Translations under genes and position numbers: made by a program | In this document: positions 1-25,300 of the stretch, one piece after another | Layout: each line of letters starts with the position of its first letter | How positions within the stretch are numbered: position 1 is the first letter of the stretch | From: Mycolicibacterium porcinum | GTDB lineage: Bacteria; Actinomycetota; Actinomycetes; Mycobacteriales; Mycobacteriaceae | Length of the DNA stretch: 64,000 nucleotides | Direction of reading: 5' to 3' | Assembly (NCBI GenBank): GCA_002086835.1 | Contig: MVIG01000011.1 | Coordinates: 161,935 to 225,934 of the forward strand | Notes under the pieces: model-generated | Databases searched by the model: none | What the model was told of the DNA's origin: nothing | The model's input: the letters and a program-made list of their open reading frames with translations, nothing else

Positions 1-495
1 CGGAAGCACATGGTTGACCGGAGTGGCCAACTGCGCGGGCCCGGTGACCATCGGGAAGCCGAGCCCGGCGTTGACCGTGTAATCCACGCCGGTGCCGCCG
101 TCCGCGCGCCCCGACACCTCGACGTGAATGAGGTCCGGACGCAGAGCGGACAGAACATCGTACGAATGCCATTGCCGTCCAGCTACATTGGTGATGAGAA
201 CCCCGGCTTCGGCGATCAACCGTTGCACCAGCTGCTGCCCGTCAGGCGAGCGCATGTCGGCGGCCAGTGAACGCTTGCCCTTGTTCAGCCCGGCCCAGTA
301 GATGCTGTCGCCGCCGTCGGTGAGCGGCCAGCGGTGATAGTCGGCAGCGCCGCCGATGGGGTCCACCCGCACCACCTCGGCACCCAGCTGAGCGAGCGTC
401 ATGCCGGCCAGCGGCACGGCGACGAAACTGGAGATCTCGACGATCCGCACCCCGGAAAGCGGGCGGGTCGGGTCCGGCGTTACAGAATCGGCCAT
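1..495 (-). CDS. CaiB/BaiF (family III) CoA-transferase, 3' part outside window
   Basis: The first 165 residues of a class III acyl-CoA transferase, which moves CoA from a thioester donor to a carboxylate. The visible part has the family's N-terminal pattern LSGVRIVEISSF, then LGAEVVRVDP and NKGKRSLAADM. The catalytic aspartate of the family normally lies near residue 170 and is therefore probably just outside the window. The ATG at 495 lies 10 bases after the stop of the upstream E1 gene, so the two are co-transcribed. In context it probably activates a dicarboxylic or other acid product of the catabolic island so that the neighbouring acyl-CoA dehydrogenase can act. Substrate not determinable from sequence. 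Confidence 0.88.
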   Translation of the reverse strand, partial: MADSVTPDPTRPLSGVRIVEISSFVAVPLAGMTLAQLGAEVVRVDPIGGAADYHRWPLTDGGDSIYWAGLNKGKRSLAADMRSPDGQQLVQRLIAEAGVLITNVAGRQWHSYDVLSALRPDLIHVEVSGRADGGTGVDYTVNAGLGFPMVTGPAQLATPVNHVLP

Positions 496-505
496 GCCAG
501 TCAAG

Positions 506-2668
506 CTATCGTGCGCCGACCAGTTTCACCGCGGCGGCCTCGATGGTGTCCTCGGACAGCAACACCTGCAGCGCGGCATCGCCCAGCGGGATGAAGCTGT
601 CGGCACTGGCGACGCGCTGCACGCTGCCGGTGAAGCCGTGATCGATGAGTTCGGCCAGCACGCCTTCCCCCACGCCTCCGGTGCGGCGGGTCTCGTCGAC
701 GATGAGCACCCGGCCGGTCGCGTCCGCCTCGCGCAGCATGTCCTCGACCGGCAACGGCGACAACCAGCGCAGGTCGACCACCCGCGCGGCGATCCCGGCC
801 TGCTCCAGGCGACGGGCCACCCGCAGGCTCATCCACAATCCGTTGCCGAACGTCAGGATGGTCAGGTCCGTACCGGCGCCGTAGGTGCGGGCCGCACCGA
901 TGCGCACCGGCTCGGCAGGGTAGGGCGCCAACCATTCTTGATCACCGTCGTCATACAGGTCCTTGGTGTGATAGAGGGCGATCGGTTCGAGGTAGATGCA
1001 CACGGCGCCTGCGGTTTTCGCCGCGGCGACGCAGGTGTGCAACATCGCGGCGGCATCGTCGGGCCGGGCCGGCGAGGCGATCACCACCCCGGGGATATCA
1101 CGGATCGCGGCGATCGAGTCGTCGTTGTGGAAGTGGCCGCCGAATCCCTTCTGGTAGCCGTAGCCCGCGATCCGCACCACCATCGGATTCCGGTACTGGC
1201 GGTTGGAAAAGAACTGCAGCGTGGCGCCCTCGCCGCGGATCTGGTCGGCGGCGTTGTGCAGATAGGCCAGGTACTGGATCTCCGGGATCGGCAGCAGACC
1301 CGATACGCCCGCTCCGAGCGCCAGTCCCAGGATGGTCTGTTCGTCGAGCAGCGTGTCGAATACGCGGGCGGGACCGGCGGTGTTCTGCAGGCCCCGGGTG
1401 ACGCCGTAGACACCGCCTTTGCGGGCGATGTCCTCGCCGAATGCGATCGCCTCCGGGTGCGTCTGCAGTACGTCCTTGAGGGCTCGGTTGATAGCCAGCG
1501 CCAGCGTCAGCGGCGCGCCGCCCGGTTCTGCCGGGCCGACCACCGAGACCGCCCGGGCCTCGTCGAAGGTGTCGCGCAGCGGTTTCATCACCGCCGGCGC
1601 ACTGTCGAGCTGGGGGCAGGCACTGAGCTCCCCCGCCAGCGCGATCACCTCGGTCCGTTTGGCCTCGTAGCGCTCGACGGCCTCGCCGGCCGTGAGTACG
1701 CCGTGTGCCACAAGGATTCTGGCGGTATTGAGCACGGGATCTCGGTCGTAGTCGGCGAGAATTTCATCGGGCCTGCGATAGGCCGGCTCGTAGTCGGAGC
1801 CGGCGTGGCCCATCAGCCGAACCGTGCCGAGATGCAGGAAGGCGGGTTTGCGATGGTTGCGCACCCACTGTGCGGCGGCCAGTGCGGTGTCGAACGCCGC
1901 GATCAGATCGCAGCCGTCGGCGGCGAAGTACTGGAGTCCGTCGCGGTCGGCATAGGTCCGGGCCACCCAGCCGCGCGGCGTCTTGGTGCTGATCCCGATG
2001 CCGTTGTCTTCGCAGACGAACAGCAGCGGCATGGGCAGCCCCTGATAGGAGGCGTGCAGTGCGGCATTGATGGCGCCTACGGCCGTCGAGTGGTTGGCCG
2101 AGGCATCGCCGAAACTGCACACCGTGACCGCATCGTCGGGCCACGGACAGGCGACATCGAGCTTGCGGGCCCGGGCGATCGAAAAGGCGACCCCCACTGC
2201 CCGCGGCAGGTGCGAGGCGATCGTCGACGTCTGCGGAATGATGTTCAGGTCATGGCGGCCGAACACCTTGTGCCGCCCGCCGGAAATCGGTTCGTCAGTG
2301 GCTGCGACCAGGCCCAGCAGCACATCGCGCACCGGATCGCTGCCGGCCACCTGAGCAGCACGGGCCAGGTAGAAACCGCCGGAACGGTAATGCAGCAGCG
2401 CCGGATCGTCTGCGCGCAGTGCCGCGGCGACCGCCGCATTGCCCTCGTGCCCGGATGATCCGATCGTGTAGAAGCCCTTGCCCTGTGCCCGCAACCAGCG
2501 CGCTGCCAGATCGAGGTGACGACTGCCCAGCTGTGCCTCGAAGAGGGCCAACGCATTCCGTTCGGTCAATGCCGATCCGTCGGGCCACGGCTGGACGCCG
2601 GGCCCGGTCAACTCCGAAACGCCTGTGCGGAAGTATTCGTCGATGGCTTCGTGGTGAGAACTGGCCAC
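506..2668 (-). CDS. Fused alpha/beta E1 component of a 2-oxoacid dehydrogenase (branched-chain type)
   Basis: A 720-residue thiamine-diphosphate enzyme joining what are usually separate E1 alpha (about residues 35-350) and E1 beta (about 385-720) subunits. The ThDP/Mg motif is visible as GDASAN (187-192, with A in place of the usual G of GDG) followed by EDNGIGIS (220-227). The beta half has AFGEDIARKGGVYGVT and the GHFHNDDS and VDLRWLSPL segments typical of the transketolase-type pyrimidine and C-terminal domains. It would decarboxylate a 2-oxoacid and pass the acyl group to a lipoyl E2. No E2 or E3 gene lies in the window, so it must borrow one from elsewhere or belong to a complex encoded beyond the left edge. 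GTG start with a clear AGGAGG 5 bases upstream. Confidence 0.88.
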   Translation of the reverse strand: MASSHHEAIDEYFRTGVSELTGPGVQPWPDGSALTERNALALFEAQLGSRHLDLAARWLRAQGKGFYTIGSSGHEGNAAVAAALRADDPALLHYRSGGFYLARAAQVAGSDPVRDVLLGLVAATDEPISGGRHKVFGRHDLNIIPQTSTIASHLPRAVGVAFSIARARKLDVACPWPDDAVTVCSFGDASANHSTAVGAINAALHASYQGLPMPLLFVCEDNGIGISTKTPRGWVARTYADRDGLQYFAADGCDLIAAFDTALAAAQWVRNHRKPAFLHLGTVRLMGHAGSDYEPAYRRPDEILADYDRDPVLNTARILVAHGVLTAGEAVERYEAKRTEVIALAGELSACPQLDSAPAVMKPLRDTFDEARAVSVVGPAEPGGAPLTLALAINRALKDVLQTHPEAIAFGEDIARKGGVYGVTRGLQNTAGPARVFDTLLDEQTILGLALGAGVSGLLPIPEIQYLAYLHNAADQIRGEGATLQFFSNRQYRNPMVVRIAGYGYQKGFGGHFHNDDSIAAIRDIPGVVIASPARPDDAAAMLHTCVAAAKTAGAVCIYLEPIALYHTKDLYDDGDQEWLAPYPAEPVRIGAARTYGAGTDLTILTFGNGLWMSLRVARRLEQAGIAARVVDLRWLSPLPVEDMLREADATGRVLIVDETRRTGGVGEGVLAELIDHGFTGSVQRVASADSFIPLGDAALQVLLSEDTIEAAAVKLVGAR

Positions 2669-2718
2669 CTGGCCTCCTGAGCTCGCGGTGGGCGGACGAT
2701 GGGCGCAACGCCGACTCG

Positions 2719-3918
2719 TCAGCGGAACGCCGGAATTCCGGTGAGCGCCTGCCCGATGATCAGACTATGCATTTCGCTGGTGCCTTCGTAGGTCAACACC
2801 GATTCCAGGTTGTTGGCGTGGCGCATCACCGGATATTCGGCGGTGATACCGCTGGCGCCCAGGATGGTGCGCGCGGTGCGGGCGATTTCCAAGGCTTCCC
2901 GGACATTGTTGAGCTTGCCGAGGCTGACCTGATCCGGAACCAGATCGCCGGTGTCCTTGCGCCTGCCGAGGTGCAGTGCGAGCAACAGGCCCTTTCCGTA
3001 CTCCAGTGTCATGTCGGCCAGCTTCTGCTGGGTGAGCTGGAAGCCGCCGATCGGCCGGCCGAACTGTTCACGTGACCGCGCATACTCCAGTGCGGTCTGT
3101 AGGCAGTCCCGTGCCGCACCCAAGGCACCGAACACGATGCCGAATCGCGCTTCGTTCAGGCAGCGCAGCGGAGCCCCGAGACTGGTCGCGCCGGGTAGCC
3201 GTGCGCTGTCGGGCAGCCGGACACCGTCGAGTACCAACTCACTGGTCACCGACGCGCGCAGCGACATCTTCGACTTGATCGTGTTGGCGGTGAAACCCGT
3301 TGTGTCCGTGGGCACGACGAAGCCGCGGACGCCCTCGTCGGTGCGCGCCCAGATGACGGCCAGATCGGCCACCGATCCGTTGGTGATCCACATCTTGGTG
3401 CCGGTCAACACCCAGTCACCGCCGGACCGGATGGCCCGAGTCCGCATCCCGGCCGGGTTTGACCCGTGGTCGGGTTCGGTGAGGCCGAAGCACCCGATGG
3501 TGCGGCCGGCGGCCATCTCCGGAAGCCAACGCTGCTTCTGCTCCTCGCTGCCGAATGCGTGGATGGCGAACATGGCCAGCGATCCCTGCACGCTGACCAG
3601 CGACCGGATCCCGGAGTCACCGGCTTCCAGCTCCAGACAGGCCAACCCGTAGGCCACCGCGCTGGTGCCCGCGCATCCGTAGCCCTGCAAGTGCATGCCG
3701 AGCAGCCCGAGTTCGCCGAGCTCACCGGCCAATTCCCGGGCCGGGAGTTCGCCGCTCTCATACCAACTCGCGATGTGCGGGCTGATACTCCGCTGGACGA
3801 CCGACCGCACGGTGTCGCGGATTTCGCGTTCTTCGGCCGAGAGCAGGGCATCGACGCCGAACATCGCGTCGGCGCCGACGATTCCGGAACTGTGTAGGGC
3901 CACAGCAGCTTCAACCAT
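2719..3918 (-). CDS. Acyl-CoA dehydrogenase, glutaryl-CoA dehydrogenase-like
   Basis: A 399-residue FAD flavoprotein. The C-terminal YEGTSEMHSLIIG (377-389) carries the catalytic base Glu378 in the position used by glutaryl-CoA and medium-chain acyl-CoA dehydrogenases, and the ending ALTGIPAF is the glutaryl-CoA dehydrogenase type. The segment IRSLVSVQGSL (104-114) matches the region of that family whose arginine binds the substrate's distal carboxylate. FLTEP-like CFGLTEPDHGSNP (143-155) lines the flavin. I infer oxidation, possibly with decarboxylation, of a glutaryl-CoA-like dicarboxylyl thioester. ATG at 3918 has an AGGAG about 10 bases upstream. It lies between the enamidase-like gene and the E1 gene in one operon. 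Confidence 0.87.
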   Translation of the reverse strand: MVEAAVALHSSGIVGADAMFGVDALLSAEEREIRDTVRSVVQRSISPHIASWYESGELPARELAGELGELGLLGMHLQGYGCAGTSAVAYGLACLELEAGDSGIRSLVSVQGSLAMFAIHAFGSEEQKQRWLPEMAAGRTIGCFGLTEPDHGSNPAGMRTRAIRSGGDWVLTGTKMWITNGSVADLAVIWARTDEGVRGFVVPTDTTGFTANTIKSKMSLRASVTSELVLDGVRLPDSARLPGATSLGAPLRCLNEARFGIVFGALGAARDCLQTALEYARSREQFGRPIGGFQLTQQKLADMTLEYGKGLLLALHLGRRKDTGDLVPDQVSLGKLNNVREALEIARTARTILGASGITAEYPVMRHANNLESVLTYEGTSEMHSLIIGQALTGIPAFR

Positions 3919-3945
3919 ATTTCTGGACTCCTGGTGGTTGTCGGT

Positions 3946-5166
3946 TCAGCAGCACCCGGTGCGGCGCGCCGTGGATTGTGCGGCCGGCGCGGGCTGGCCG
4001 CGCCACTTGACCGCGCGGCTGGGAGGCGGGGTCTGTTCACTGCGTGTCGTCACCAGCGGTACACCGTCGACCAGTACCGTCGCGATGCCCGGCAGGTCCC
4101 CGACGGCAAAGCACTCCAGGGCGTCGTCGGCGGTCGATCCGGTGACCGGTCCGAGGACCAGCAGGTCGGCGGGGCGCCCTTCCGCGAGCACCCCGGTGTG
4201 CAAGCCGTGCGCCCGCGCGGTCTGGCCGGTGGCCGCCGCAACCGCGCGAAGCGGGTCGACGCCGCAGATCGAGGCCAGAAAGCAGATGTTGCGCAGCATT
4301 CCCCGCGGGATCACGCCGGTGCCGCCGGGAGTGTCGGTGCCGAGTGTGAGCCTGCCGAGTTCATCGCGCGCGGACAGTTCGTCGACGACCAGTTTGGTCG
4401 CGCGGTAGTTCATGGAACTGCACACCTCGACGTGGGCCGAGGGCAGGTCGGCGATGATCGCCACGATGTCCTCGTCAGGTGGTGGGATCGGACCACCCGA
4501 GATATGACCGACGATGTCCGGTCTGACCGCCGCCACGACGTCACGCCCGGCGACCCGGCTCGACCCGGACCGCGACACCCCGCCTGAGTGCATCTTGACG
4601 GTCATGCCGCGTTCGTGAGCCCATCGGACGTAGCGCTGCGCTTCCCCGTCCCCCAGGCGGTTCCAGTCGTAGAAGATGAACTTGAGATGCTCGATGCCTT
4701 CGTGGCGCGCCCGGTCGAAGTGCTCCTCGGTCATGCCCGGAACGAGTAGCACCGTGCCCGCGTTGACCTTCACGCCCGAAGGGCGCGCACGCCCGGTGGT
4801 GTGCTTGGACGTGATCGCGATGCTCAGTACGAGTTCCGGGGTCAGCGCACCGAAATCCAAGCCGGGAATGTGCAGTTCGCCCGCAGACACCATCGAGGTG
4901 GTCCCGCCCTGCAGGTAGTTGCCGATCCAGCCGATCGAGTTCTGCGCGGGCGTCCACTCGCCGAACGTCGGATGCACGTGCCCGTCGACGAGTCCGGGCA
5001 TGACGGTCAAGCCGCCGGCGGACAGCACGTGGTCGGGATCGTGGTGGTCCACCCCGATGCCTGCGACGCATCCGTCCTCGATCAGCAGTGTGGTGTCACG
5101 CAGGGGTGGCGACGACGCATCGCCGGACACCAGCAGTCCGATGTCCTCCACGAGCAGTGTGGTCAC
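3946..5166 (-). CDS. Enamidase-like amidohydrolase
   Basis: A 406-residue metal-dependent amidohydrolase. The N-terminal metal motif is PGLVDGHVHP, later ligand regions are VKMHSGG, GHISGG and LGTDTPGGTG, and the C-terminal part reads GVLAEGRPADLLVLGP. From memory of the family the closest described enzyme is enamidase of anaerobic nicotinate fermentation: shared features run the whole length, including VSGD near the start, ARPSGVKVNAG, the GTGVIPRGMLRNIC block and GDLPGIATVLVDG. Enamidase opens 1,4,5,6-tetrahydro-6-oxonicotinate to 2-formylglutarate. I chose GTG at 5166 because GGGAGG lies 4 bases before it; GTG at 5178 is an alternative. A GntR-type operator lies about 22-40 bases upstream. 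First gene of the operon running to the left edge. Confidence 0.85.
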   Translation of the reverse strand: MTTLLVEDIGLLVSGDASSPPLRDTTLLIEDGCVAGIGVDHHDPDHVLSAGGLTVMPGLVDGHVHPTFGEWTPAQNSIGWIGNYLQGGTTSMVSAGELHIPGLDFGALTPELVLSIAITSKHTTGRARPSGVKVNAGTVLLVPGMTEEHFDRARHEGIEHLKFIFYDWNRLGDGEAQRYVRWAHERGMTVKMHSGGVSRSGSSRVAGRDVVAAVRPDIVGHISGGPIPPPDEDIVAIIADLPSAHVEVCSSMNYRATKLVVDELSARDELGRLTLGTDTPGGTGVIPRGMLRNICFLASICGVDPLRAVAAATGQTARAHGLHTGVLAEGRPADLLVLGPVTGSTADDALECFAVGDLPGIATVLVDGVPLVTTRSEQTPPPSRAVKWRGQPAPAAQSTARRTGCC

Positions 5167-5187
5167 AGATCCTCCCACCGTTGGATT

Positions 5188-5206
5188 TTGTATACACTAT
5201 CCGATG
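5188..5206 (-). promoter_or_regulatory. GntR-type operator a (enamidase operon)
   Basis: On the minus strand the site reads ATCGGATAGTGTATACA, matching the three other sites of this island (consensus TTGGATA-nnn-TATnCnA). It lies just upstream of the enamidase start and is flanked by outlying half-sites ATTGGA (about 5208-5214) and ATCCAA (5181-5186). GATAGT inside it could serve as a -10 element. Probable binding site of the GntR protein encoded at 15992-16717. Confidence 0.65.
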
Positions 5207-5276
5207 TTGTCCAATGGGCATAGCGCAACCGACGGCGACACGGTTGCGGCGCCCGCCGATGCAGCCCTGTAGGTAT

Positions 5277-6302
5277 TCACCGCTGCCGCAACCACATCGG
5301 TGCCGCCAACGGCGCGACGAACACGATCAGCACCACGATCAACGCCCCGGCGAAATTCATCGCCAGCCGCACGGCGCCCTCGTACCAGGGAAACAACCCC
5401 GGGTATTCACTGATCACCAGCAGCACGGGAGGTCCGGTGATCGCCCACCACGTGTAGTTGACGGGCCGCAGCGCCATCGCGAGCAGGAACAGCACCACGG
5501 TCAGTCCGATCACCACAGGCGCCGGTGGATGTGCCCCCAGCAGGGCCGCGGCGATCACCGCACCGACCGCGTTACCCGAAAGCCGCTGGGCCAAGCGCTG
5601 ACCGGTCCGGGACCGGGTCGGCTGAATGGTCAGCAGCACGCTGGTGACCAACCAATGGCCGCCCACCATGCCGGCGGGCAGCAGCGTCGCCGTCAGCACG
5701 GCCAGGCCTACAGCGACCCCTACCCGAACCGCATGAGCCGCCCCGGCCGGGGCACTCGACGAGGTCGGTTCATCCTCGCCACGGTGCCGCAGCCGGGATA
5801 CCGCGAACCACACCGCCCATCCCGCGAACACGATGAGGATGCCGACGAGGTACGGCCACAGCGCCGCCGGACCCGTGGTGCCGCGATCCAGGTCGATCGA
5901 TATCAGGACCACCGCCAGGCCCGCCGTCGCACCGACCGCCGGCACGAGTGCGCCCGCGATCGACGCCGCCACGGTGAGCGTCGCGAGTGCCACGGCGTTG
6001 TGCATGCCGGCAACGAGCGCTCCGGCGACCATCACCGTCACGGCCCGCACCGCCATGGTGTGCACGGCCGGGCGCCAGGCGGTGGGGATCTCGGGAACGG
6101 CGGTCAGCACGAAGCCCAGTCCGATCGCCGACCCCCATTCGGGTCGGCCCGACAACGCTGTGCCACACAGGATCACGCCCAGTCCGACGGCCAGCGCCGC
6201 ACCCATCCCCCACCTGCTGCGGCCGACGGGACGCAGCAGCTCCGGAGTGCGGACCCGGGCGCCGTTCACAGGGCTGTCGGCAGGCCCCGCGCGCGGCGAC
6301 AT
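5277..6302 (-). CDS. FUSC-family (fusaric-acid-resistance-like) membrane protein
   Basis: A 341-residue integral membrane protein with about ten hydrophobic segments in two halves separated by a charged loop near residues 175-190 (RLRHRGEDEPTSSS). The two-times-five arrangement and the second-half motif GGHWLVTSVLLTIQPTRSRTGQRLAQR resemble the FUSC/aromatic-acid exporter superfamily. I start it at ATG 6302, which overlaps the stop of the 2Fe-2S subunit gene as TGATG; the reading frame is open further upstream but only over the other gene. Coupling to a molybdenum hydroxylase operon suggests export of a toxic intermediate or import of the substrate. Role inferred only. Confidence 0.75.
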   Translation of the reverse strand: MSPRAGPADSPVNGARVRTPELLRPVGRSRWGMGAALAVGLGVILCGTALSGRPEWGSAIGLGFVLTAVPEIPTAWRPAVHTMAVRAVTVMVAGALVAGMHNAVALATLTVAASIAGALVPAVGATAGLAVVLISIDLDRGTTGPAALWPYLVGILIVFAGWAVWFAVSRLRHRGEDEPTSSSAPAGAAHAVRVGVAVGLAVLTATLLPAGMVGGHWLVTSVLLTIQPTRSRTGQRLAQRLSGNAVGAVIAAALLGAHPPAPVVIGLTVVLFLLAMALRPVNYTWWAITGPPVLLVISEYPGLFPWYEGAVRLAMNFAGALIVVLIVFVAPLAAPMWLRQR

Positions 6303-6823
6303 CACCCGGATTCGCCGGCGGCGTCCAGCACCGCCTGCACAATGCCCTGGTAGCCGGTGCACCGGCAGATATTGCCCGACAATGCCTCTCGCACCGAAGC
6401 CTCGGTCAGCGGCTTCTCGGTGTCGGGATCACGCAGCAGCTCGACGGCAGTGACGAGGAATCCCGGGGTGCAGAACCCGCACTGCAGACCCCCGCGCTCG
6501 GAAAACGCCTCACGCAGCCTTCTGGTCTCCTCGAACTCCTCGAGACCCTCGACCGTGGTCACCCGCATCCCGTCGATCTGCACCGCCAGCATGAGGCAGG
6601 TGCGCACGCTGCGACCATCGAGGAACACCGAACAAGCGCCACATACCCCGTGCTCGCAACCCAGATGTGTTCCGGTCAAGCCCAGTTCGTCCCGCAGAAA
6701 ATCGGCCAGCGTCAATCGCGGCGGCACCGTGCGCTGTATCAACCTGCCGTTGACGACGGCGGATATCGGCACACTCGCCGGCGGTTGCGCCACATCGGTA
6801 GCCGGCGCCTCAATCGCCCGCAT
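6302..6823 (-). CDS. Molybdenum hydroxylase, 2Fe-2S small subunit
   Basis: A 173-residue electron-transfer subunit of the xanthine oxidase/CO dehydrogenase family. All eight cluster ligands are present: the plant-ferredoxin-type set C56, C61, C64, C76 and the all-helical domain set C115, C118, C153, C155 (QCGFCTP and ICRCTGYQGI). It carries electrons from the molybdenum centre to the FAD subunit. The start overlaps the end of the FAD-subunit gene by 14 bases and its stop overlaps the next gene, so the cluster is translated as a chain. Roughly 10 residues longer at the N-terminus than usual. Confidence 0.93.
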   Translation of the reverse strand: MRAIEAPATDVAQPPASVPISAVVNGRLIQRTVPPRLTLADFLRDELGLTGTHLGCEHGVCGACSVFLDGRSVRTCLMLAVQIDGMRVTTVEGLEEFEETRRLREAFSERGGLQCGFCTPGFLVTAVELLRDPDTEKPLTEASVREALSGNICRCTGYQGIVQAVLDAAGESG

Positions 6824-10021: not shown

Positions 10022-10818
10022 TGAAGTCGTTTCTCCCACTGCCAGAGCGCAATCGAGATTCCGAACGAGATGGTGATCAGCAACATGATGGTGGCCACCA
10101 TGGACGGGTAGTCGCCGTGACTGTAGGCCTGCAGAACCACGCGGCCGAGACCCCGCCTGGTCGCGAAGAACTCCGACAGCACCACGCCGACAACCGCGAG
10201 GCTCACCGCCAGCCGGATTCCGGTCAACAGCGGCCGCCGGATGGCCGGAATGATGATGTGTACCAGGGTCTGCCAGGCGTTGGCGCGCACCGACCGGGCC
10301 AGCTTCCAGTACACCCGCGGGATTTCCTGTACCCCGGTGGTCACGTTGATCAACACCGGGAACAGCGCGAACAGCACCCCCATCACGATCTTGGAGCCAG
10401 ACAGACTGAAGATCGGCAGCAGTACCGGGTACAGCACGATCTTCGGAATTCCGTTCAGCACGATCAGCATCGGCTCGAACATCACGCGCAACCGCTGGGA
10501 CAAGCCGAGCACCAGCCCCAGCGCCCCACCGACTGCCGTGCCGATCACGAACGCCAGGAACACCGACTGTGCTGTGACCTGCAGATCGAACAGATACCCG
10601 GGATCGGCGAGGTTGTGGACGAGTACCCGGAAGGTCTCGACCGGCGACGGAATCACGAACGTCAGGGCCGAGAAGATCTCCCAGACGACGACCACCAGGA
10701 GTGCCAGCAGGGTGGCTCCGACGGCCTGGTTGCCGAGGATGGCGCGGAGGCGCTGCGGCGTGGTTCGCGGCGCGGGGGCCGCGGGGTGTCCGGCAGGTGG
10801 CTGCAGGGTCGAGGTCAT
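10018..10818 (-). CDS. ABC transporter permease (SsuC/TauC type), second copy
   Basis: A 266-residue inner-membrane permease with about six membrane segments. The coupling-loop region around residues 170-190 (ARSVRANAWQTLVHIIIPAIR) is the EAA motif that contacts the ATPase. Family members import sulfonates, nitrate, pyrimidine precursors or aromatic acids. The start forms ATGA with the stop of the other permease gene at 10815. The long upstream extension of the reading frame lies over that gene and is not coding. With the first permease it probably forms a heterodimeric channel. Confidence 0.88.
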   Translation of the reverse strand: MTSTLQPPAGHPAAPAPRTTPQRLRAILGNQAVGATLLALLVVVVWEIFSALTFVIPSPVETFRVLVHNLADPGYLFDLQVTAQSVFLAFVIGTAVGGALGLVLGLSQRLRVMFEPMLIVLNGIPKIVLYPVLLPIFSLSGSKIVMGVLFALFPVLINVTTGVQEIPRVYWKLARSVRANAWQTLVHIIIPAIRRPLLTGIRLAVSLAVVGVVLSEFFATRRGLGRVVLQAYSHGDYPSMVATIMLLITISFGISIALWQWEKRLH

Positions 10819-11666
10819 CGGTTCCTCCCGCGCAGCAGAATGCGTTCCACGCCTGCCAGCAACGCGGTGAGGATGCAGGACAGCACCAGCACAACCGCGA
10901 TGTAGGCGAACATCTCGTTGTTGTTGAAAATCTCGTAGAGGTACCGGATCCGGTAGCCCAGACCGGCCTGCGCAGTGGTGAACTCCATCGCGATGGTTCC
11001 GATCAGCGCGTAGACCACCGCCAGGCGCAGGCCCGCCACGATGTATGGTCCGGCCGCAGGGATGGCGATCGCGAAAAGGGTCTGCCGGGGCGAGGCCTTC
11101 AGCGAGCGGGCCAGTTTCATGTACACCGGCGGCATGGTGTTGAGCCCGACCGCCGTGTTCAGCGCCATCGGGATGGCCGCCATGATCGTGGCCAGGATGA
11201 TCACCGACGTCGCGTTGATCCCGACGATCACGATCATCACCGGATAGAACAGCACGAGCGGCACCGCGTAGAACGACACCAGATACGGCTCGAAGATGCG
11301 TCCGACGGCAGGCAGCTTCCAGAAGGTCAGGCCGGCCGCGAAACCCAGCAGACTGCCGAACAGGATCGAGAACGCCACCTCGATACCCGTGCGGGCCGCG
11401 TCGTTCCAGAACTGTCCTTCGCCGAGGAGGCGACCGAGCTCGGAGAGGATCACCGAGGGCGCGGGCAGAATGCGGTCGCTCCACAGCCCGGTCCGGGCGC
11501 CCAACTCGGCGAACAGCAAGAAGCCGATGATGAGCGCGAGCGTCGAGAGCATGCTGATCACCGAGTTGCCCACCCGCATCTTGCGCCGCTCCGGCTCCGG
11601 ACGTCCCGCGTGGGTACTCATGTCCTCGGTGGGCAGGTCATCCTGTGCGACATATGACGTCGTCAC
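10815..11666 (-). CDS. ABC transporter permease (SsuC/TauC type), first copy
   Basis: A 283-residue permease with a charged N-terminal tail of about 30 residues and about six membrane segments. The EAA loop reads [24 protein letters not shown] at 11666 overlaps the ATPase stop as GTGA, a start that removes the non-coding upstream extension. Only moderately similar to the second permease; both keep the KLARS-x-A EAA start. Part of the importer encoded by 10018-13491. Confidence 0.88.
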
Positions 11667-12472
11667 GTAGCCACCTTCTTCTGGGCTTCCTGCTGTCTGA
11701 ATCCGCGCATGGATTCGGCTTGCAGTGACGTCCAGATCCGGTTCTGGAGTTCGTTGAATCGCGGGGTGGAGACCATGCCCGCGTCGCGCTCGGCGGGCAG
11801 GTCGATGTCGACGACATCGATGATCGATCCGGGCCGGTACGACATCACCCAAACCTGTTGGGAGAGCAGAATCGCCTCGGAAATGTCATGGGTGACGAAC
11901 ACGATCGTCTGTTTGGTTCTCGCCCAGATCTGCCGAACCTCGGCACCGAGAAACAACCGGGTCTGCTGGTCGAGGGCGGCGAACGGCTCGTCCATCAGCA
12001 CCACTTCCGGCTGCACCGCCAAGGTCCGCGCGAGGGCGACCCGCTGCCGCATGCCACCGGAAAGCATGGAGGGATAAGATTTTTCGAAGCCGCCGAGCCC
12101 GACCAGTTCGATAGCCTCTTTCGCCCGCCGACGGCGCTCGGCCTTGTCGGTGCCGATCATCTCCATCGCGAACGCCACGTTTTCCTCGACCGTCCGCCAC
12201 GGCAGCGTCGAATCTTCCTGAAACACCACACCGATGGACGGGTCGGGGCCGGTGACGGGCCTTCCGCCGACGCGCACCAGCCCGGTTGACGACTCCTGCA
12301 GACCGGAGATCACGGCCAGCAGGGTCGACTTTCCGCATCCGCTCGGTCCGACGATGGACACGAAACTGGCATGCGGTACGTGCTGTTTGATGTCGGTTAC
12401 CGCTGTCACCTTGCCGGCCGGGGTGTCGAAGACCACGGAGACGTTGTCGATCCGGATACCGTCACGATCCAT
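11663..12472 (-). CDS. ABC transporter ATP-binding protein (SsuB/TauB type)
   Basis: A 269-residue ATPase that energises the importer. Walker A is GPSGCGKST (42-50), the Q-loop is in [11 protein letters not shown] (82-92), the signature is LSGGMRQR (137-144), Walker B is [12 protein letters not shown] (157-168), and the H-loop is FVTHD. This set, with the LPWRTVEEN stretch, is typical of the sulfonate/nitrate/taurine branch. It lies 35 bases downstream of the binding-protein gene and overlaps the first permease gene by 4 bases. Confidence 0.93.
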
Positions 12473-12507
12473 TGGTACGCCTTTCGGAGGTACTGACCCT
12501 GGTCAGC

Positions 12508-13491
12508 TCAGATGTCGGTCTGCGCGTCATCGGGCAGGTACTGCTGATCAAGCGTTGCGGCCCAATCGATCTGCTCCGGAATCTGCCCGGCGCCGACCAT
12601 CAGCTCGGAGAGGTTCTTCAGCCCGTCCGCATCGACTTTCAGCGAGTAACCCTTGGCCAGATCGGGATTGCTGGCGAACGCTGCCGTCATCACTTCGGGC
12701 GACACTCCGACCAGGGGGGCGATCTCTTTGGCCGCCTCACCGGGGTTGGCGACCAGCCAGTCGTTCAGTCGATCGGCGACGGTGAAGAACGCGCGCACAT
12801 TGTCGGGATTCTGTTGGGCGTATTCGGCATTCACCGCCACCAGATCGGCGGGCAGGTCGCCCACCACGTCCCTGGAATCGACCAGCACCTCGGCATGATC
12901 GGAAGCCTGCTTGTCGGCGATGAACGGCTGCATGGCCCAACCCGCGGTGATCTGACCGGCCTTGGCAGCGGTCCAGTTGTCGCCCATCGGTCCCACCGCC
13001 TGCGACTTGACCCCGAGCTTGCGTTCGAGGCCTTTGACGATCAGCTCGGTGGACGAGCCCGCCGAGCTGAACCCGAGGGTGGCGTTCTCCAGTTTCCGCC
13101 CCGGTGGCGCGATCCACGAGAAGTCGTTGACCTGGAACCAGGGCGCAACCACCTTGAGGTTCGAATTCGGTTGCCGCGCCGCGAGAATCACCGAACTGTT
13201 GCCGGCGATCGCCATGTCCGCGTCACCGCTGGTGACCACACGCAGAGTGTTGCCGCCACCGCCACCGGAATACAGATCGACGTTGACTCCCTGTTCCTTG
13301 AACCAGCCCTTGTCGATTCCGACCTGCAGTATCGCCATGAACGGCAGACTGTCGACGCCGGTCGCCGAGATGCTCAGCGTGTCCGCGCCGCCACTCTCCG
13401 GGCCTGTCGATTCGTCGGCACAAGCTGTTACTGCCGCGACGAGTGCCACCGCGGTACCCGCCGCGGCGAACACTTTACGAAACCAGGCCAT
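12508..13491 (-). CDS. ABC transporter substrate-binding lipoprotein (SsuA/THI5-like)
   Basis: A 327-residue exported lipoprotein. A signal peptide of about 23 residues ends in a lipobox VTAC with Cys24 as the lipidated residue. The mature protein starts the NMT1/SsuA fold with SISATGVDSLPFMAILQVG and has the GGGGGNTLRVVTSGDADMAI ligand-pocket region. The large neutral pocket of this family accepts sulfonates, pyrimidines and aromatic acids, so the ligand cannot be named. GGAGG lies before the ATG. It has its own promoter, with the GntR-type operator b over the -10 region. Confidence 0.9.
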   Translation of the reverse strand: MAWFRKVFAAAGTAVALVAAVTACADESTGPESGGADTLSISATGVDSLPFMAILQVGIDKGWFKEQGVNVDLYSGGGGGNTLRVVTSGDADMAIAGNSSVILAARQPNSNLKVVAPWFQVNDFSWIAPPGRKLENATLGFSSAGSSTELIVKGLERKLGVKSQAVGPMGDNWTAAKAGQITAGWAMQPFIADKQASDHAEVLVDSRDVVGDLPADLVAVNAEYAQQNPDNVRAFFTVADRLNDWLVANPGEAAKEIAPLVGVSPEVMTAAFASNPDLAKGYSLKVDADGLKNLSELMVGAGQIPEQIDWAATLDQQYLPDDAQTDI

Positions 13492-13520
13492 GGACGCAAA
13501 CCTCCGAGAGCGGGTTGAAT

Positions 13521-13540
13521 ATTGGATACACTATACGAAT
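13521..13540 (-). promoter_or_regulatory. GntR-type operator b (transporter/hydroxylase operon)
   Basis: The plus strand reads ATTGGATACACTATACGAAT, an imperfect palindrome. It is the second of four matching sites in the island and covers the -10 hexamer of the promoter reading toward the binding-protein gene, a layout expected for repression by occlusion. Confidence 0.7.
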
Positions 13541-13558
13541 TGGTGTGATCTAGGTCAA
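13530..13558 (-). promoter_or_regulatory. Promoter of the binding-protein/ABC/Mo-hydroxylase operon
   Basis: On the minus strand TTGACC (13553-13558) and TATAGT (13530-13535) are separated by 17 bases, a near-consensus SigA promoter. The -10 lies inside operator b. Three further GGTCAA-type direct repeats (13566, 13574, 13586 as GGTCCAA) lie upstream. The start would be about 30 bases before the binding-protein ATG. Confidence 0.65.
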
Positions 13559-13575
13559 CATTTTCGGTCAATAGG

Positions 13576-13854
13576 TCAACAGTTTGGTCCAATGCGGGAA
13601 GCACCGCCACCCGTCCACAGCCGGGACAGTTCCAGTCCTACCGCCACGCCGATCAGCGCCGCAGCCGTGGTGAACCGCGACCTCGGCGCAGCCGGTACTT
13701 GAACGGGTGGCGCGCAGGCGGCGGCCGACACCCCGGCTCCGACTGCCGTGATCGAAACGCCGTCAGCCGCAGTGAGATTCCGTTTCAGCGGTGGCGGGGC
13801 GCCCGGCCCCGCGCTACCCGGTGCCGGAAACCCCCCGACGGCACCCTCAGCCAC
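13576..13854 (-). CDS. Possible small membrane-anchored protein (92 aa)
   Basis: I do not recognise this frame. A GTG at 13854 overlaps the last codons of the flavoprotein gene and opens a 92-codon frame. It is rich in Ala, Pro and Gly and ends in one membrane segment, FTTAAALIGVAVGLELSRLW. That tail resembles the C-terminal anchor of the CoxG-like protein encoded 1 kb away (LLTTAAGIALGLAIGR), which hints at a related anchor or a remnant. No good ribosome-binding site is visible beyond translational coupling. It could also be non-coding. Confidence 0.4.
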   Translation of the reverse strand: MAEGAVGGFPAPGSAGPGAPPPLKRNLTAADGVSITAVGAGVSAAACAPPVQVPAAPRSRFTTAAALIGVAVGLELSRLWTGGGASRIGPNC

Positions 13855-14842
13855 GGCCGTCGACGATGCGCGCGAAGGTACGGATGGTGGGCGCCCGGCT
13901 CTCCCCCGGTCGCACGAACGGCACGATCGACACCTGGTCGACGCCGAGCGATTCGATCTCCTTGAGACGCTGCGCGCATTCATCGGGTGTCCCGGCGAGC
14001 GCAAACAGGTCCACCAGCTCGTCGGGCACCAGGTCGGCGTGCGAGGCCTCGGGATTCATGTGCTGGTAATAGTCGTAGGAGTCCCGGATCCGATCGATCA
14101 CCTTCTCCAAAGCGGGCTCGACCTTGGCCGGGAGCGGCCTGATCGCCACGCGGGACACGTGCGCGCGCACCAGATCCCGCGCCTTGGTCCGATCTTCGTC
14201 GATGGCCGTCGGAGTCCAGAGCACCACATGGATGTCGTCGAGCGAACGGCCGCTCTCGGCCGCGCCGGCTTCGATCGTCTGCAGCGCCGCCTCGATGAAG
14301 TGCGGTGCGGTGCCGACCAGCACGATGACACCATCGGCGATGCGTCCCGACATCCGCAGGATCTTCGGGGCGGAGGCGGCGATGTAGATCGGAATGTCCA
14401 TCGGGCCGTCGAGATAATTGAGGTGATACTCGGAGCCGCTGGTCGGCTCCGCCACCTTCTCGCCCCTGAACAGTGCTCTCAGTTCGCGTATCGACTCTTC
14501 GAGCTCAGCCAGCTTGAGCGGCTTGAGACCCATTGTCCGCAAAGACGAGTCGCCGGTGCCTATGCCGAGCGCCACCCGGCCACCGGTGTATTCGGCCAGG
14601 GTCGCCCAGGTGGACGCCAGCAGGGATTGATGCCGCGTCACCGCATTGGTGACGCCGGTGCCGAAGATGATGCGTTCGGTTCCGACGGCCGCGGCGCCCA
14701 TGACGGTGGAAGACTCCCGCCAGATGTTCTGCGAATCCCCGAACCAGACGTTGTCGTAACCGAGCGACTCGCTCAACCGCACGTATTCACACATCGTGCC
14801 CACCGGTTCGGTCGGAAACAGACCGACTCCCTTACTCAGCAC
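13847..14842 (-). CDS. LLM-class (luciferase-like) flavin- or F420-dependent oxidoreductase
   Basis: A 331-residue luciferase-fold protein. Visible family features are YDNVWFGDSQN near residue 30, TNAVTRHQSLLASTWATLAEYTGGRVALGIGTGDS around 67-100, and DIPIYIAASAPKILRMSGRIADGVIV around 150-175. The last region is typical of F420-dependent methylenetetrahydromethanopterin-reductase-like members, so an F420 cofactor is plausible in a mycobacterium. I start it at GTG 14842 because AGGAGG lies 7 bases upstream; the frame is open to 14920 but that covers the operator. It may reduce or oxygenate a ring intermediate of the pathway. Confidence 0.85.
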   Translation of the reverse strand: MLSKGVGLFPTEPVGTMCEYVRLSESLGYDNVWFGDSQNIWRESSTVMGAAAVGTERIIFGTGVTNAVTRHQSLLASTWATLAEYTGGRVALGIGTGDSSLRTMGLKPLKLAELEESIRELRALFRGEKVAEPTSGSEYHLNYLDGPMDIPIYIAASAPKILRMSGRIADGVIVLVGTAPHFIEAALQTIEAGAAESGRSLDDIHVVLWTPTAIDEDRTKARDLVRAHVSRVAIRPLPAKVEPALEKVIDRIRDSYDYYQHMNPEASHADLVPDELVDLFALAGTPDECAQRLKEIESLGVDQVSIVPFVRPGESRAPTIRTFARIVDGRG

Positions 14843-14862
14843 TATCGACCTCCTGGGCGACG

Positions 14863-14879
14863 TTGGATATCGTATCCAA
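14863..14879. promoter_or_regulatory. GntR-type operator c (divergent flavoprotein/CoxG-like promoters)
   Basis: TTGGATATCGTATCCAA is a perfect palindrome with 7-base arms and a 3-base centre, the best-formed of the four sites. It lies between two divergent genes, 21 bases from the flavoprotein start and 61 bases from the CoxG-like start, and contains possible -10 elements in both directions (TACGAT and TATCGT). Confidence 0.75.
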
Positions 14880-14940
14880 TCGTAGGGTGGGCCTTCGGGA
14901 CGCACAACCGCAGCACGCAATCGAGGAAACGGAAACCGCC

Positions 14941-15534
14941 ATGCAGTTAGTCAACGAGTTCTCCGTCGATGCCCCGCTTGACATCGCCTGGGCGGCACTG
15001 ACAGACGTGCCCCGTGTGGTCGAATGCATCCCTGGCGCAACGCTGGAAAGCCACGACGGCGACGACTACCGCGCCAACGTCGCCATCAAGGTCGGCCCGG
15101 TCGGTCTCACCCTCGCCGGCACGGCGACCGTGATCCGTCGCGACGACAGCACGCATGAGATGGTGGTCCGCGGCCAGGCCAGCGACAGGAAAGGGAACGG
15201 CTCAGCACAGGCCACCGTCACCATGTCGGCCTGCGAGCGCGGCACCCACACCGAGGTCACGGTGCGTACCGATCTCGAACTGGATGGCCGTATCGCCCAG
15301 TTCGGCAGCGGCGTCATCTCTCAGGTCAGCAACCGCATCATCGGGCAGTTCGTGCGCAGGCTCAACACGATGATCGTGGGGGCCGACGGCATTCAGAGCG
15401 CTGCTGTCGAGGTGATCCCGGCGCCACGACAGCCGGAGTTCACCGAAACCGACTGGTGGTCAGTCCTGTTGACCACCGCGGCCGGGATCGCGCTGGGGCT
15501 TGCGATCGGACGCACCGCCGCCCGACGGGTCTGA
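14941..15534 (+). CDS. CoxG-like SRPBCC-domain protein with C-terminal membrane anchor
   Basis: A 197-residue protein of the carbon monoxide dehydrogenase subunit G family. The SRPBCC fold covers about residues 1-150 (MQLVNEFSVDAPLDIAWAAL, then the CIPGATL motif at about 25-31), followed by a linker and a single membrane helix (SVLLTTAAGIALGLAIGR). In CO-oxidising bacteria CoxG tethers the molybdenum enzyme to the membrane; here it probably does the same for the hydroxylase of this island. I use ATG 14941, preceded by a GAGGAAACGG stretch; the open frame further upstream covers the operator. Divergent from the flavoprotein gene, with stop codon directly abutting that of the convergent RidA pseudogene. 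Confidence 0.85.
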   Translation: MQLVNEFSVDAPLDIAWAALTDVPRVVECIPGATLESHDGDDYRANVAIKVGPVGLTLAGTATVIRRDDSTHEMVVRGQASDRKGNGSAQATVTMSACERGTHTEVTVRTDLELDGRIAQFGSGVISQVSNRIIGQFVRRLNTMIVGADGIQSAAVEVIPAPRQPEFTETDWWSVLLTTAAGIALGLAIGRTAARRV

Positions 15535-15995
15535 TCAGTCGCGCACCGCTGCGACGAGTTCGAGTTCCACGCACGCCCCACCAGGCAATGACGCCACCCC
15601 GATCGCCGTGCGGGCATGAGCCCCGCACTCCTCGCCGAATACCTCGAGCAACAACTCGGACGCCCCGTCGATCACCCCGGGTGGGAGTCGAAATCGGAAG
15701 TGGCGCGGACGTACCCACGCAGATGCACCAGTGCGGTGACCGAATCCAAGCCGACGGCGGCATCCAACGCCGCCACGAGATTGAGGGCAGCCAGCCGCGC
15801 CTGGGCGGTTGCCTGCTCAGCGGTGACATCGGCGCCGACCACGCCCACTGCACTCGGATCGTCGGGACGACGCGCCGTGGTTCCCGAAACCCACAGCTGG
15901 TCGCCATGCCTGCGGCTCGGAAAGTAGGCTCCCTTCGGCCGCGCCGGCGCCGGCAGCTCGATTCCCAACGAAGCCAAGCGTTCTCCGACCGTCAC
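15535..15995 (-). pseudogene. RidA-family gene disrupted by a -1 frameshift
   Basis: The N-terminal 107 codons from GTG 15995 encode a RidA/YjgF-like protein (GAYFPSRRHGDQLWVSG, then QARLAALNLVAALDAAVG), ending in a premature TGA near 15672. The remaining C-terminal part continues in another frame to 15535 (GVIDGASELLLEVFGEECG, then HARTAIGVASLPGGACVELE). One extra G in the run CCCGGGG near 15671-15677 would restore a normal 153-residue protein. RidA proteins hydrolyse reactive enamines and imines, which fits a nitrogen-ring pathway. It is either a genuine loss or a homopolymer sequencing error. The start forms GTGA with the GntR stop. Confidence 0.85.
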
Positions 15996-16717
15996 GCTCC
16001 CGGTTCCTGGTTGCCGAAGACGGTGTGCAGGTGGTCGATGGCATGACTGCGGTGCTGGTGGTTCAACGCGACCACCCGATCGACATCGCGGGCCGCCATC
16101 GCATCGACCAGCAGCACGTGCTCACTGTTGACCTGGTCCAGATCCATCAGGTGGGCATACATCGGGCGGTAGGCGTCGGCGGTGTTCCACAGCTGGGTGA
16201 CGATCCGCTTGGTGCGCGCCATCCGACTGGCCTCGAAGGTCAGGAAGTGAAACTGCCTGTTCGCCAACCCCACCCCGATGAGATCAGCCTCGGCCGCGGC
16301 CCGGTCCATCGCGGCCATCTGCTCACGCATGGCATCGATGAGTTCGTCGGTGACCGCCGGCATCGCATCACGAATGAGTTCGGCCTCGAGGATGTCGCGA
16401 ATCCGGAACACCTCGACGAGCTCATCCAGCCCGAGTTGTGCGACGCGGTATCCGCTGTGCGGCACGTACGTGATGTATTCCTCGGCCTCAAGGGTTTTCA
16501 GCGCCTCGCGAACCGGAATCCGCGACATGCCGAACTGCTCGGCCAGGCTCTCCTGCACGATCCAGCTGCCGGGCGCGAGTTTGCCACTGGTGATGTCGCG
16601 TCGCAGCGCTTCGGCCACCGCCTGCTGGGCGGTTTTGGGCCGGACGAAATCCGACCGCGCTCCAGTTGCGGAGTCGGACGCGACGGCTGTACGTCGGGTG
16701 GCAGTTCGCGGTGGCAT
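15992..16717 (-). CDS. GntR-family transcriptional regulator (FadR/FCD subfamily)
   Basis: A 241-residue regulator. The winged helix-turn-helix spans about residues 28-95 (LRRDITSGKLAPGSWIVQESLAEQFGMSRIPVREALKTL in sequence order), and the C-terminal all-helical FCD domain has the putative metal/ligand histidines in NRQFHFLTFEAS and the NHQHRSHAIDH ending. An arginine- and threonine-rich N-terminal tail of about 25 residues precedes the DNA-binding domain. Operator d sits 20-40 bases before its start, suggesting autoregulation, and the same motif precedes the other operons of the island. The ligand is probably a pathway acid or its CoA ester. Confidence 0.9.
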   Translation of the reverse strand: MPPRTATRRTAVASDSATGARSDFVRPKTAQQAVAEALRRDITSGKLAPGSWIVQESLAEQFGMSRIPVREALKTLEAEEYITYVPHSGYRVAQLGLDELVEVFRIRDILEAELIRDAMPAVTDELIDAMREQMAAMDRAAAEADLIGVGLANRQFHFLTFEASRMARTKRIVTQLWNTADAYRPMYAHLMDLDQVNSEHVLLVDAMAARDVDRVVALNHQHRSHAIDHLHTVFGNQEPGA

Positions 16718-16737
16718 CAGGTCTCGCTTTCGCTAAT

Positions 16738-16756
16738 ATTGGATACTCTATGCGAT
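16738..16756 (-). promoter_or_regulatory. GntR-type operator d (regulator gene)
   Basis: The plus strand reads ATTGGATACTCTATGCGAT. It shares the TTGGATA half-site and TAT right half with the other three sites. It lies just upstream of the regulator's ATG and overlaps a possible -10 on the minus strand. Confidence 0.68.
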
Positions 16757-19127: not shown

Positions 19128-19140
19128 GAGTGGAATTCTC

Positions 19141-20634: not shown

Positions 20635-20734
20635 GGGTCCGAACCTTCCTGTGGCATTTGGGGTACGGCTATCACTCTGAGCCACCGTCAACACCTCAAG
20701 TGTCATCAACCTGTAAGTCTGATTGACTCGTTCA

Positions 20735-20747
20735 TTACACTTTGTAA
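20735..20747 (+). promoter_or_regulatory. Palindrome and -10 element directly before the PucR start
   Basis: TTACACTTTGTAA is a perfect palindrome (5-base arms, 3-base centre) that ends at the base before the ATG. TACACT at 20736-20741 is a good -10 with six bases to the ATG and no ribosome-binding site is visible, so the mRNA may be leaderless. The palindrome could be an autoregulatory operator. Confidence 0.5.
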
Positions 20748-22352: not shown

Positions 22353-22362
22353 TGCGGGGCAT

Positions 22363-23775: not shown

Positions 23776-23811
23776 TGGCGAACGAGTCCTTTCATCGCTG
23801 ATAACGGCCAC

Positions 23812-25161: not shown

Positions 25162-25202
25162 TCCATCGCCTTTCGAAACATTGGACCCGCTTCCCAACTG
25201 GT

Positions 25203-25221
25203 CCACCGTGTGGCACAGTGG
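25203..25221. promoter_or_regulatory. Candidate IclR operator between matC and the IclR gene
   Basis: CCACCGTG-TGG-CACAGTGG is a palindrome with 7 of 8 arm bases matching. It lies 42 bases before the matC start and about 80 before the iclR-type gene, where a regulator of both divergent genes would bind. Inferred from position and symmetry only. Confidence 0.5.
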
Positions 25222-25300
25222 TCTACTGTATGAACCGGTGCCGGGGTAAGCTAGCTCACATCCGCGGCGCGGGTCAATGTGAGTCACCCAGGAGGGGCGC

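Follow-up and report, generated by a model that had tools for sequence, protein, structure and literature searches.

A conserved mycobacterial gene island that may encode a reductive route from picolinate to 2-oxoadipate

Our analysis of a 64,000-nucleotide stretch of the Mycolicibacterium porcinum draft genome (contig C6:161935-225934 of an assembly of 6.96 Mb in 102 contigs; we call the whole stretch the window) concerns a catabolic island at window positions 1-16717, which lies on the minus strand throughout except for a CoxG gene on the plus strand. We consider it most likely, though by no means certain, that this island lets the host degrade picolinate (pyridine-2-carboxylate) aerobically, by a reductive route that passes through 2-oxoadipate. 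With somewhat less assurance, but still leaning in favor, we propose an aerobic, dearomatising picolinate pathway of actinobacteria in which a luciferase-like (LLM-class) protein would reduce a hydroxypyridine with F420H2, an enamidase-like hydrolase would open the ring toward 2-oxoadipate, and any of three exchangeable endings would take over from there. If this is true, cofactor F420 has a natural, non-xenobiotic role in breaking an aromatic N-heterocycle, one upper pathway is plugged into three different 2-oxoadipate endings, and the island is a first set of picolinate-utilisation genes from Gram-positive bacteria. The genes are in any case concrete candidates for such a route, and they provide testable substrates for two families, an orphan LLM one and an enamidase-like one. 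Picolinate itself chelates metals and arises when tryptophan and aminophenol are broken down. Passages of PMC10142695 name Arthrobacter, Streptomyces and Rhodococcus as picolinate users, while the pic genes described there are Gram-negative. Judging by titles and abstracts, we recognised no description of the island's gene set among the openly licensed papers listed for it.

Gene content and conservation can be read directly from the genomes. A scan of genome contigs gave 36 loci encoding the hydrolase, which with the window and genome G260 make 38 clusters (L and G numbers label our loci and genomes; L027 is also G279); these may include duplicate species, and nine were read over longer stretches than the others. 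Homologues were counted at identity limits of 55% for the hydrolase and LLM protein and at loose limits of 27-38% for the molybdenum (Mo) hydroxylase subunits, permeases and CoxG. Of the 38 clusters, 31 have the hydrolase together with the LLM protein and the full trio of Mo subunits, and 29 have the ATPase and both permeases of an ATP-binding cassette (ABC) importer as well. Clusters short of the five core genes are L033, L035, L036 and L042, where the stretch or contig ends, and L046, L054 and L056, where genes are missing. Gene by gene, the LLM protein is found in 33, each Mo subunit in 33, each permease in 31, the ATPase in 30, the binding protein in 29, CoxG in 29, a FUSC membrane protein in 24, a glutaryl-CoA dehydrogenase (GCDH) in 23, a 2-oxoacid dehydrogenase E1 in 22, a GntR regulator in 15, a CoA-transferase in 11 and a Rid gene in 9, the counts for GntR and Rid being lowered by the many stretches that end before them. 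The set recurs in Mycolicibacterium and Mycobacterium (by the hydrolase, the nearest named relative is Mycolicibacterium peregrinum, at 97%), and hydrolase, LLM protein and Mo subunits occur jointly in nine other named genera. Such recurrence makes the gene set more than chance.

An earlier interpretation made from the DNA letters alone, the sequence-only reading, had treated all these genes as one unit, probably for breaking down an N-heterocycle or cyclic amide by uptake, ring hydroxylation, reduction, hydrolytic opening and CoA-linked oxidation of a glutarate-like acid. Our results support that outline for an N-heterocycle, with an opening of the enamidase type and glutaryl-CoA as the compound oxidised. 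Every gene it named is present, as judged by Pfam, NCBIfam and solved-structure matches, and the core does travel as a unit among other genomes; the CoA-transferase and E1 lie outside the part common to other genera. Beyond mycobacteria, GCDH is seen solely in Knoellia, Planosporangium and Nocardioides and FUSC once, in Georgenia (39%), and the CoA-transferase accompanies E1 in 11 of 22 clusters. In broader samples the hydrolase is rare: among 301 genomes of the family it occurs at 83-100% identity in 3 and at 34-38% in 2, and among 394 genomes of the class at 83-100% in 3 and at 37-39% in 5. At E 1e-70 the LLM protein is found in exactly the 3 genomes of the class sample with the 83-100% hydrolase, all of one genus, and 17 of the 18 cluster genomes searched hold its orthologue.

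Several clusters depart from the common arrangement. Mycobacterium sp. PO1 (L056:3044-3543) lacks the LLM protein, binding protein and ATPase between CoxG and the permease, with no run of N at the site. The Nocardioides hydrolase (L051:11254-20552 and L057) adjoins another Mo hydroxylase (28-40%) and importer, the LLM protein and GCDH lying about 19 kb off. In an actinobacterial metagenome-assembled genome (MAG; L053:10001-20329) the hydrolase-LLM pair is present twice, once as orthologues (64%, 60%) and once as distant relatives (42%, 40%) with an aldehyde dehydrogenase lying between; it looks as though the pair had been redeployed as a unit on another ring. The Amycolatopsis hydrolase (L046:2300-12200) adjoins the LLM protein in the company of two other amidohydrolases, an isochorismatase-family protein and an aldehyde dehydrogenase, with no Mo hydroxylase in the stretch; here 6-hydroxypicolinate might come from another precursor. 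Finally, a MAG contig titled Klebsiella pneumoniae (L054:10001-11032) encodes a 58% hydrolase, and the other island genes were not found there. The genome concerned gives no LLM match and has cofD over cut-off, and its Klebsiella label may be wrong.

The hydrolase (3946-5178, minus; a putative tetrahydro-6-oxopicolinate hydrolase) has enamidase 2vun as its best solved structure (E=1.5e-82 over residues 8-391; the runner-up reaches 2e-4). Alignment shows that it keeps the site residues H67, H69, H197, H225 and D282 of 2vun, while Lys166 replaces Glu164; we take these aligned His, Asp and Glu164 residues to be the metal site. A Lys at the position equivalent to Glu164 also occurs in 6 of 7 distant hydrolase homologues. 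Three arginines, Arg203, Arg208 and Arg292, are present in all 36 aligned rows (34 of them distinct; L040, L047 and L054 are outside the count), 2vun carrying Ile, Thr and Leu at these positions, and could reflect a differently placed carboxylate. In a tree with some long branches, the cluster hydrolases form one group, separate from 2vun and the seven distant homologues. The hydrolase thus goes with enamidase rather than with unrelated amidohydrolases, as had been supposed.

The seven distant homologues (33-38%) were examined in stretches of about 20 kb. Mo-hydroxylase subunits lie near three of them (L127:9114-12997, L128:6155-10110 and L131:9127-13109, with hydrolases of 36-37%), and no LLM protein of the island family was found near any of the seven at E 1e-6. 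These three loci may be candidate actinobacterial nicotinate-type clusters with another reductase.

The Mo hydroxylase is encoded by a 2Fe-2S subunit (6302-6823, minus; PF01799, PF00111), a flavin adenine dinucleotide (FAD) subunit (6810-7691, minus; PF00941) and a large subunit (7688 to about 9991, minus, start approximate; PF01315, PF02738, PF20256; nearest structures 7dqx and 1t3q). The large subunit scores 460 bits against 6-hydroxypseudooxynicotine dehydrogenase and 400 against quinoline 2-oxidoreductase, compared with 298-329 for CO dehydrogenases and 124 and 97 for the two separate chains of nicotinate dehydrogenase. CO oxidation, which CoxG and the matches to CO dehydrogenase could suggest, was rejected: the score is 599 bits against a cut-off of 950, and the subunit is closer to pyridine and quinoline hydroxylases.

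The LLM protein (13847-14842, minus, its start set by alignment with relatives) had been called a flavoprotein. The gene is there, and the label needs correction, for the protein is nearest to F420 enzymes of the Mer type: its six best solved structures are all F420-dependent Mer proteins (115-147 bits), luciferase-type flavin mononucleotide enzymes score far lower, and all nine NCBIfam models over the reporting limit are F420 or Mer families. The likeness to Mer also led us to reject alkanesulfonate use, which the SsuABC and LLM names might suggest. All 18 cluster genomes checked have the cofactor gene cofD (TIGR01819) above its cut-off, as compared with 3 of 14 well-known control genomes; we chose TIGR01819 because PF01933 matched twice in 17 of the 18 and cannot separate CofD from a paralogue. 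For picrate, passages of PMC8498797 describe a luciferase-like hydride transferase that passes hydride from F420H2 to the aromatic ring. The island's LLM protein is probably a ring reductase using F420H2, a putative 6-hydroxypicolinate reductase, and would thus probably be the reductase that the sequence-only reading left without a gene.

What compound does the ring opening deliver? One of three downstream modules is present in 28 of the 38 clusters. The first consists of a fused E1 with alpha and beta parts in one chain (506-2668, minus; PF00676, PF02779, PF02780; a putative 2-oxoadipate dehydrogenase E1) and a GCDH-like acyl-CoA dehydrogenase (2719-3918, minus; top solved structure 3sf6, a glutaryl-CoA dehydrogenase, at 770 bits). 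E1 is found in 21 of 23 mycobacterial clusters, the exceptions being L028, where the stretch ends, and L035, and also in Knoellia; 20 of these 22 E1 clusters have a whole GCDH gene. The second module is built on HglS, which adjoins the hydrolase or lies within about 1.2 kb of it in Sphaerisporangium (L040), Nonomuraea (L048), Georgenia (L050) and M. bacteremicum (L035). The HglS family score is 719 bits in L040 and 715.3 in L050 (cut-off 600), and in the L048 and L035 genomes the assignment is by PF07063 over cut-off; all four cluster copies keep the arginine motif RHGAIR. According to passages of PMC7286885, HglS converts 2-oxoadipate to D-2-hydroxyglutarate, is inactive on every other oxoacid tested, and has an Arg74 that matters for specificity. 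A D-2-hydroxyglutarate dehydrogenase homologue adjoins HglS in L040 and L048 (482 bits with the YdiJ model, under its cut-off of 1350) and lies about 12 kb away in Georgenia (L067). In M. bacteremicum HglS stands next to the hydrolase and the genome contains no E1, an exchange of one module for the other within the genus. The third module, in Planosporangium (L043) and Nocardioides (L051), comprises a thiamine diphosphate (ThDP) decarboxylase, an aldehyde dehydrogenase nearest alpha-ketoglutaric-semialdehyde dehydrogenase and a CoA-transferase nearest succinate-glutarate CoA-transferase, all three below NCBIfam cut-offs, plus GCDH. These three unrelated, exchangeable modules would fit one compound, 2-oxoadipate. 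Among 24 chosen cluster genomes 17 carry E1, 8 HglS and 20 at least one of E1, HglS and the ThDP set, a count that supports 2-oxoadipate weakly, because 43 of the 151 family genomes examined have E1 regardless.

Evidence on E1 also comes from outside the island. Its ThDP motif reads GDA..EDN instead of GDG..NN. We read 20 stretches around E1, including three already known as candidates, and in those three it adjoins L-piperidine-6-carboxylate dehydrogenase (PCD, over cut-off), an enzyme leading from lysine to aminoadipate, once with GCDH as well. Moreover, all 43 genomes that have E1 also have PCD, compared with 36 of the 108 that lack E1 (Fisher p=4.9e-16, for related genomes that are not independent), and the host genome carries PCD elsewhere (G000:C1). 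The link with PCD places E1 on the aminoadipate/2-oxoadipate route independently of the island. In one further genome, G099 (L118:4332-10473), E1 and the CoA-transferase adjoin the same aminotransferase and HAD protein as in the window and the rest of the island is missing, perhaps through loss or perhaps as a forerunner.

From here the substrate can be argued backwards. Enamidase hydrolyses a tetrahydro-2-pyridone. If such an opening followed by ammonia loss is to yield 2-oxoadipate, the ring must carry its carboxylate at the position adjacent to the nitrogen, and the ring opened would be 1,4,5,6-tetrahydro-6-oxopyridine-2-carboxylate. That ring would come from the reduction of 6-hydroxypicolinate, itself from the hydroxylation of picolinate, and thus picolinate fits better than nicotinate. 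The steps that follow, with each reaction, substrate and cofactor, are ones that we infer. The ABC importer would bring picolinate in, and the three-subunit Mo hydroxylase would convert it to 6-hydroxypicolinate, CoxG perhaps helping to pass electrons on. The LLM protein would transfer hydride, probably from F420H2, to give 1,4,5,6-tetrahydro-6-oxopicolinate, and the hydrolase would open this cyclic enamide to 2-aminohex-2-enedioate or 2-iminoadipate. Loss of ammonia, brought about by the Rid protein, by the same hydrolase or simply by water, would then leave 2-oxoadipate. In mycobacteria, the fused E1, with E2 and E3 from elsewhere, would produce glutaryl-CoA and GCDH would turn this into crotonyl-CoA. 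In other actinobacteria the ending would be either HglS with D-2-hydroxyglutarate dehydrogenase or the ThDP decarboxylase with aldehyde dehydrogenase and CoA-transferase.

A number of observations weigh against this proposal. Picolinate is deduced from the product rather than observed. A Mo hydroxylase paired with an enamidase does not need the island's LLM protein, as L127, L128 and L131 show, and this slightly lowered our confidence in picolinate and in the dearomatising pathway with F420H2. The Mo hydroxylases of L051 and L053 differ (28-40% and 35-54%) and pass by the loose limits only, there is none in the L046 or L054 stretch, and L056 is without LLM protein, binding protein and ATPase. 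The LLM protein passes no F420 family cut-off in NCBIfam (best 187.3 bits against 276), and the cofD figures cover cluster hosts and 14 controls rather than actinobacteria at large. E1 is itself under NCBIfam cut-offs, no E2 or E3 genes are present beside it, and 17 of the 20 E1 stretches show no PCD within about 8 kb, most having neither PCD nor GCDH. Ten of the 38 clusters are without a downstream module in the fetched stretch, and for four of them the end of a stretch or contig is at least part of the reason. The stretches of L028, L042 and L054 stop early or are short; the other seven clusters are L038, L039, L044, L046, L047, L052 and L053. Likewise, four of the 24 genomes (G308, G312, G317 and G318) are without E1, HglS or the ThDP set, and GCDH has been lost beside E1 in L023 and L024. 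The Rid gene is in two frames here, and of the 15 clusters that show GntR, 6 gave no Rid gene. Lastly, the island's own CoA-transferase, nearest to 2-methylfumaryl-CoA isomerase, seems to have no place in the proposed route.

Which other substrates could account for the island? Perhaps the true substrate is a substituted picolinate, alkylated or 6-halogenated, degraded by the same chemistry. Fusaric acid, for instance, is 5-butylpicolinic acid, and a FUSC-family exporter lies inside the island in 24 of 38 clusters; the Amycolatopsis cluster, too, pairs hydrolase and LLM protein with amidohydrolases and has no Mo hydroxylase in the stretch. However, FUSC-type proteins are broad and occur here in mycobacterial clusters and once elsewhere, and HglS is reportedly specific for unsubstituted 2-oxoadipate among the acids tested (passages of PMC7286885), so that we regard such a substrate as unlikely, though it survives best among the alternatives.

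Slightly less probable still is the reductive nicotinate pathway of Eubacterium barkeri and Azorhizobium caulinodans, which runs through 6-hydroxynicotinate, tetrahydro-6-oxonicotinate, 2-formylglutarate and glutarate to glutaryl-CoA. The hydrolase does match the enamidase of that pathway, and GCDH, together with the aldehyde dehydrogenase and CoA-transferase of L043 and L051, could take glutarate semialdehyde. Yet HglS, E1 and the ThDP decarboxylase act on alpha-keto acids, and 2-formylglutarate is none; its later enzymes are not among the downstream genes of the clusters, where alpha-keto-acid enzymes stand instead (no genome-wide search was made), and L127, L128 and L131 are better candidates for a nicotinate route. 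The resemblance to nicotinate degradation, or to that of a lactam, on which the sequence-only reading had leaned has therefore lost ground, since the exchangeable downstream modules point to the alpha-keto acid 2-oxoadipate.

A non-aromatic cyclic imine or lactam, such as a piperideine- or oxopiperidine-carboxylate, with the LLM protein oxidising rather than reducing, appears improbable. Mo hydroxylases can oxidise cyclic imines to lactams, 2-oxoadipate is an intermediate of the lysine route, and E1 elsewhere sits with PCD; against this, heteroaromatic hydroxylases are the closest matches of the Mo large subunit, and PCD, which the host genome has elsewhere, makes aminoadipate more simply. That the core and the E1, GCDH and CoA-transferase part are chance neighbours from different pathways is very improbable: G099 does keep E1 and CoA-transferase beside the same HAD protein and aminotransferase without the rest of the island, and the CoA-transferase accompanies just half of the E1 clusters, but Knoellia has GCDH and E1 beside the core, and unrelated 2-oxoadipate modules substitute in other genera and in M. 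bacteremicum. Isonicotinate degradation by a citrazinate-type route was rejected or lowered, as it would leave HglS and GCDH unexplained.

The right end of the island holds the Rid gene (about 15535-15995, minus), already described as a broken RidA. It does read in two frames in the draft assembly, and the two Rid pieces, searched apart, match single-frame genes of relatives, one of whose copies matches Rid proteins of known structure; a PF01042 profile search of the genome did not report the island gene. A Rid protein would suit an alpha-imino acid such as the one proposed here. Next to it lies the GntR/FCD transcriptional regulator (15992-16717, minus; PF00392, PF07729). Between the LLM and CoxG genes sits a palindrome, TTGGATATCGTATCCAA (14863-14879), with no other exact match in the genome and one other site at two mismatches, where the reversed control gives none. 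In 17 mycobacterial relatives in which the LLM start was located, TGGATAYNRTATCCA is exact in 11 and changed in 6; in other genera the resemblance is loose only. Presumably this is a regulator site, and the GntR/FCD protein probably acts on it in the LLM/CoxG promoter.

The remaining island genes complete the layout. The window edge clips a family III CoA-transferase to its 5' part (1-504, minus; PF02515); the whole gene, seen at L009:266-1504 minus, encodes 412 aa and is nearest the NCBIfam model for 2-methylfumaryl-CoA isomerase at 398.8 bits, short of the cut-off of 725. The FUSC or aromatic acid exporter-like membrane protein (5277-6362, minus; PF13515, PF06081) is given by its open reading frame, the true start probably lying further in. 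The importer consists of a permease (10018-11034, minus; PF00528; start approximate, the open frame reaching 11484), a second permease (10815-11852, minus; PF00528), whose open frame overlaps the ATPase and whose true start is probably further in, the ATPase (11663-12472, minus; PF00005) and an NMT1/SsuA-type substrate-binding protein (12508-13491, minus; PF09084; 71.4 bits with TIGR01728, under the cut-off of 163.5). The CoxG-like protein (PF06240) is at 14941-15534 on the plus strand. In L023:11248-11325 GCDH is reduced to a C-terminal remnant (residues 374-399) between hydrolase and E1, a remnant included among the 23 clusters counted with GCDH, and L024 has the same loss.

To the right of the island, 17742-25287 encodes a class III aminotransferase, a CoA-acylating dehydrogenase of the methylmalonate-semialdehyde type, a PucR regulator, an AMP-binding enzyme and a MatC-like carrier, which together resemble a unit of their own for an amine or malonate semialdehyde. 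The HAD protein, aminotransferase and CoA-acylating aldehyde dehydrogenase at 16.8-20.8 kb were considered as parts of the pathway and rejected; G099 keeps the first two without the core. Farther on, a probably spurious tRNA-Arg call (46555-46648) falls within a long GlnD/HD-domain gene (45150-47669).

How does the proposed picolinate route compare with known systems? The reductive nicotinate pathway, in the account given in part of PMC9304392, likewise partly saturates the ring, opens it with an enamidase and loses ammonia, and the island hydrolase is related to 2vun, but that pathway yields 2-formylglutarate, whereas the product deduced for the island is 2-oxoadipate and the later genes differ. 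The reductases would differ too, the island's putative one being an LLM protein and that of the E. barkeri nicotinate route being, reportedly, ferredoxin-dependent. Lysine degradation through 2-aminoadipate and 2-oxoadipate has its later enzymes, E1 and GCDH or HglS, in common with the island, which would enter 2-oxoadipate from a pyridine ring rather than from lysine; none of the island genes was recognised as coding for an aminoadipate enzyme. The F420H2-dependent picrate reductase Fht resembles the proposed reduction in that a luciferase-like hydride transferase moves hydride from F420H2 onto an aromatic ring (part of PMC8498797), a likeness by description and not by sequence comparison, and its ring is a nitroaromatic as opposed to a hydroxypyridine carboxylate. 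For picolinate itself we found no route through ring reduction described, the known route being oxidative and its genes Gram-negative: the pic pathway of Alcaligenes faecalis and Bordetella, as summarized in passages of PMC10142695, probably shares the substrate and the first step, picolinate to 6-hydroxypicolinate, and then proceeds by a second hydroxylation to 3,6-dihydroxypicolinate, decarboxylation to 2,5-dihydroxypyridine and dioxygenase cleavage to fumarate. None of the three enzymes concerned, 6-hydroxypicolinate monooxygenase, 3,6-dihydroxypicolinate decarboxylase and 2,5-dihydroxypyridine dioxygenase, is among the island's Pfam matches (no genome-wide search was made). Thus, by analogy, the island seems to apply the reductive logic of the nicotinate pathway to the substrate of the pic pathway.

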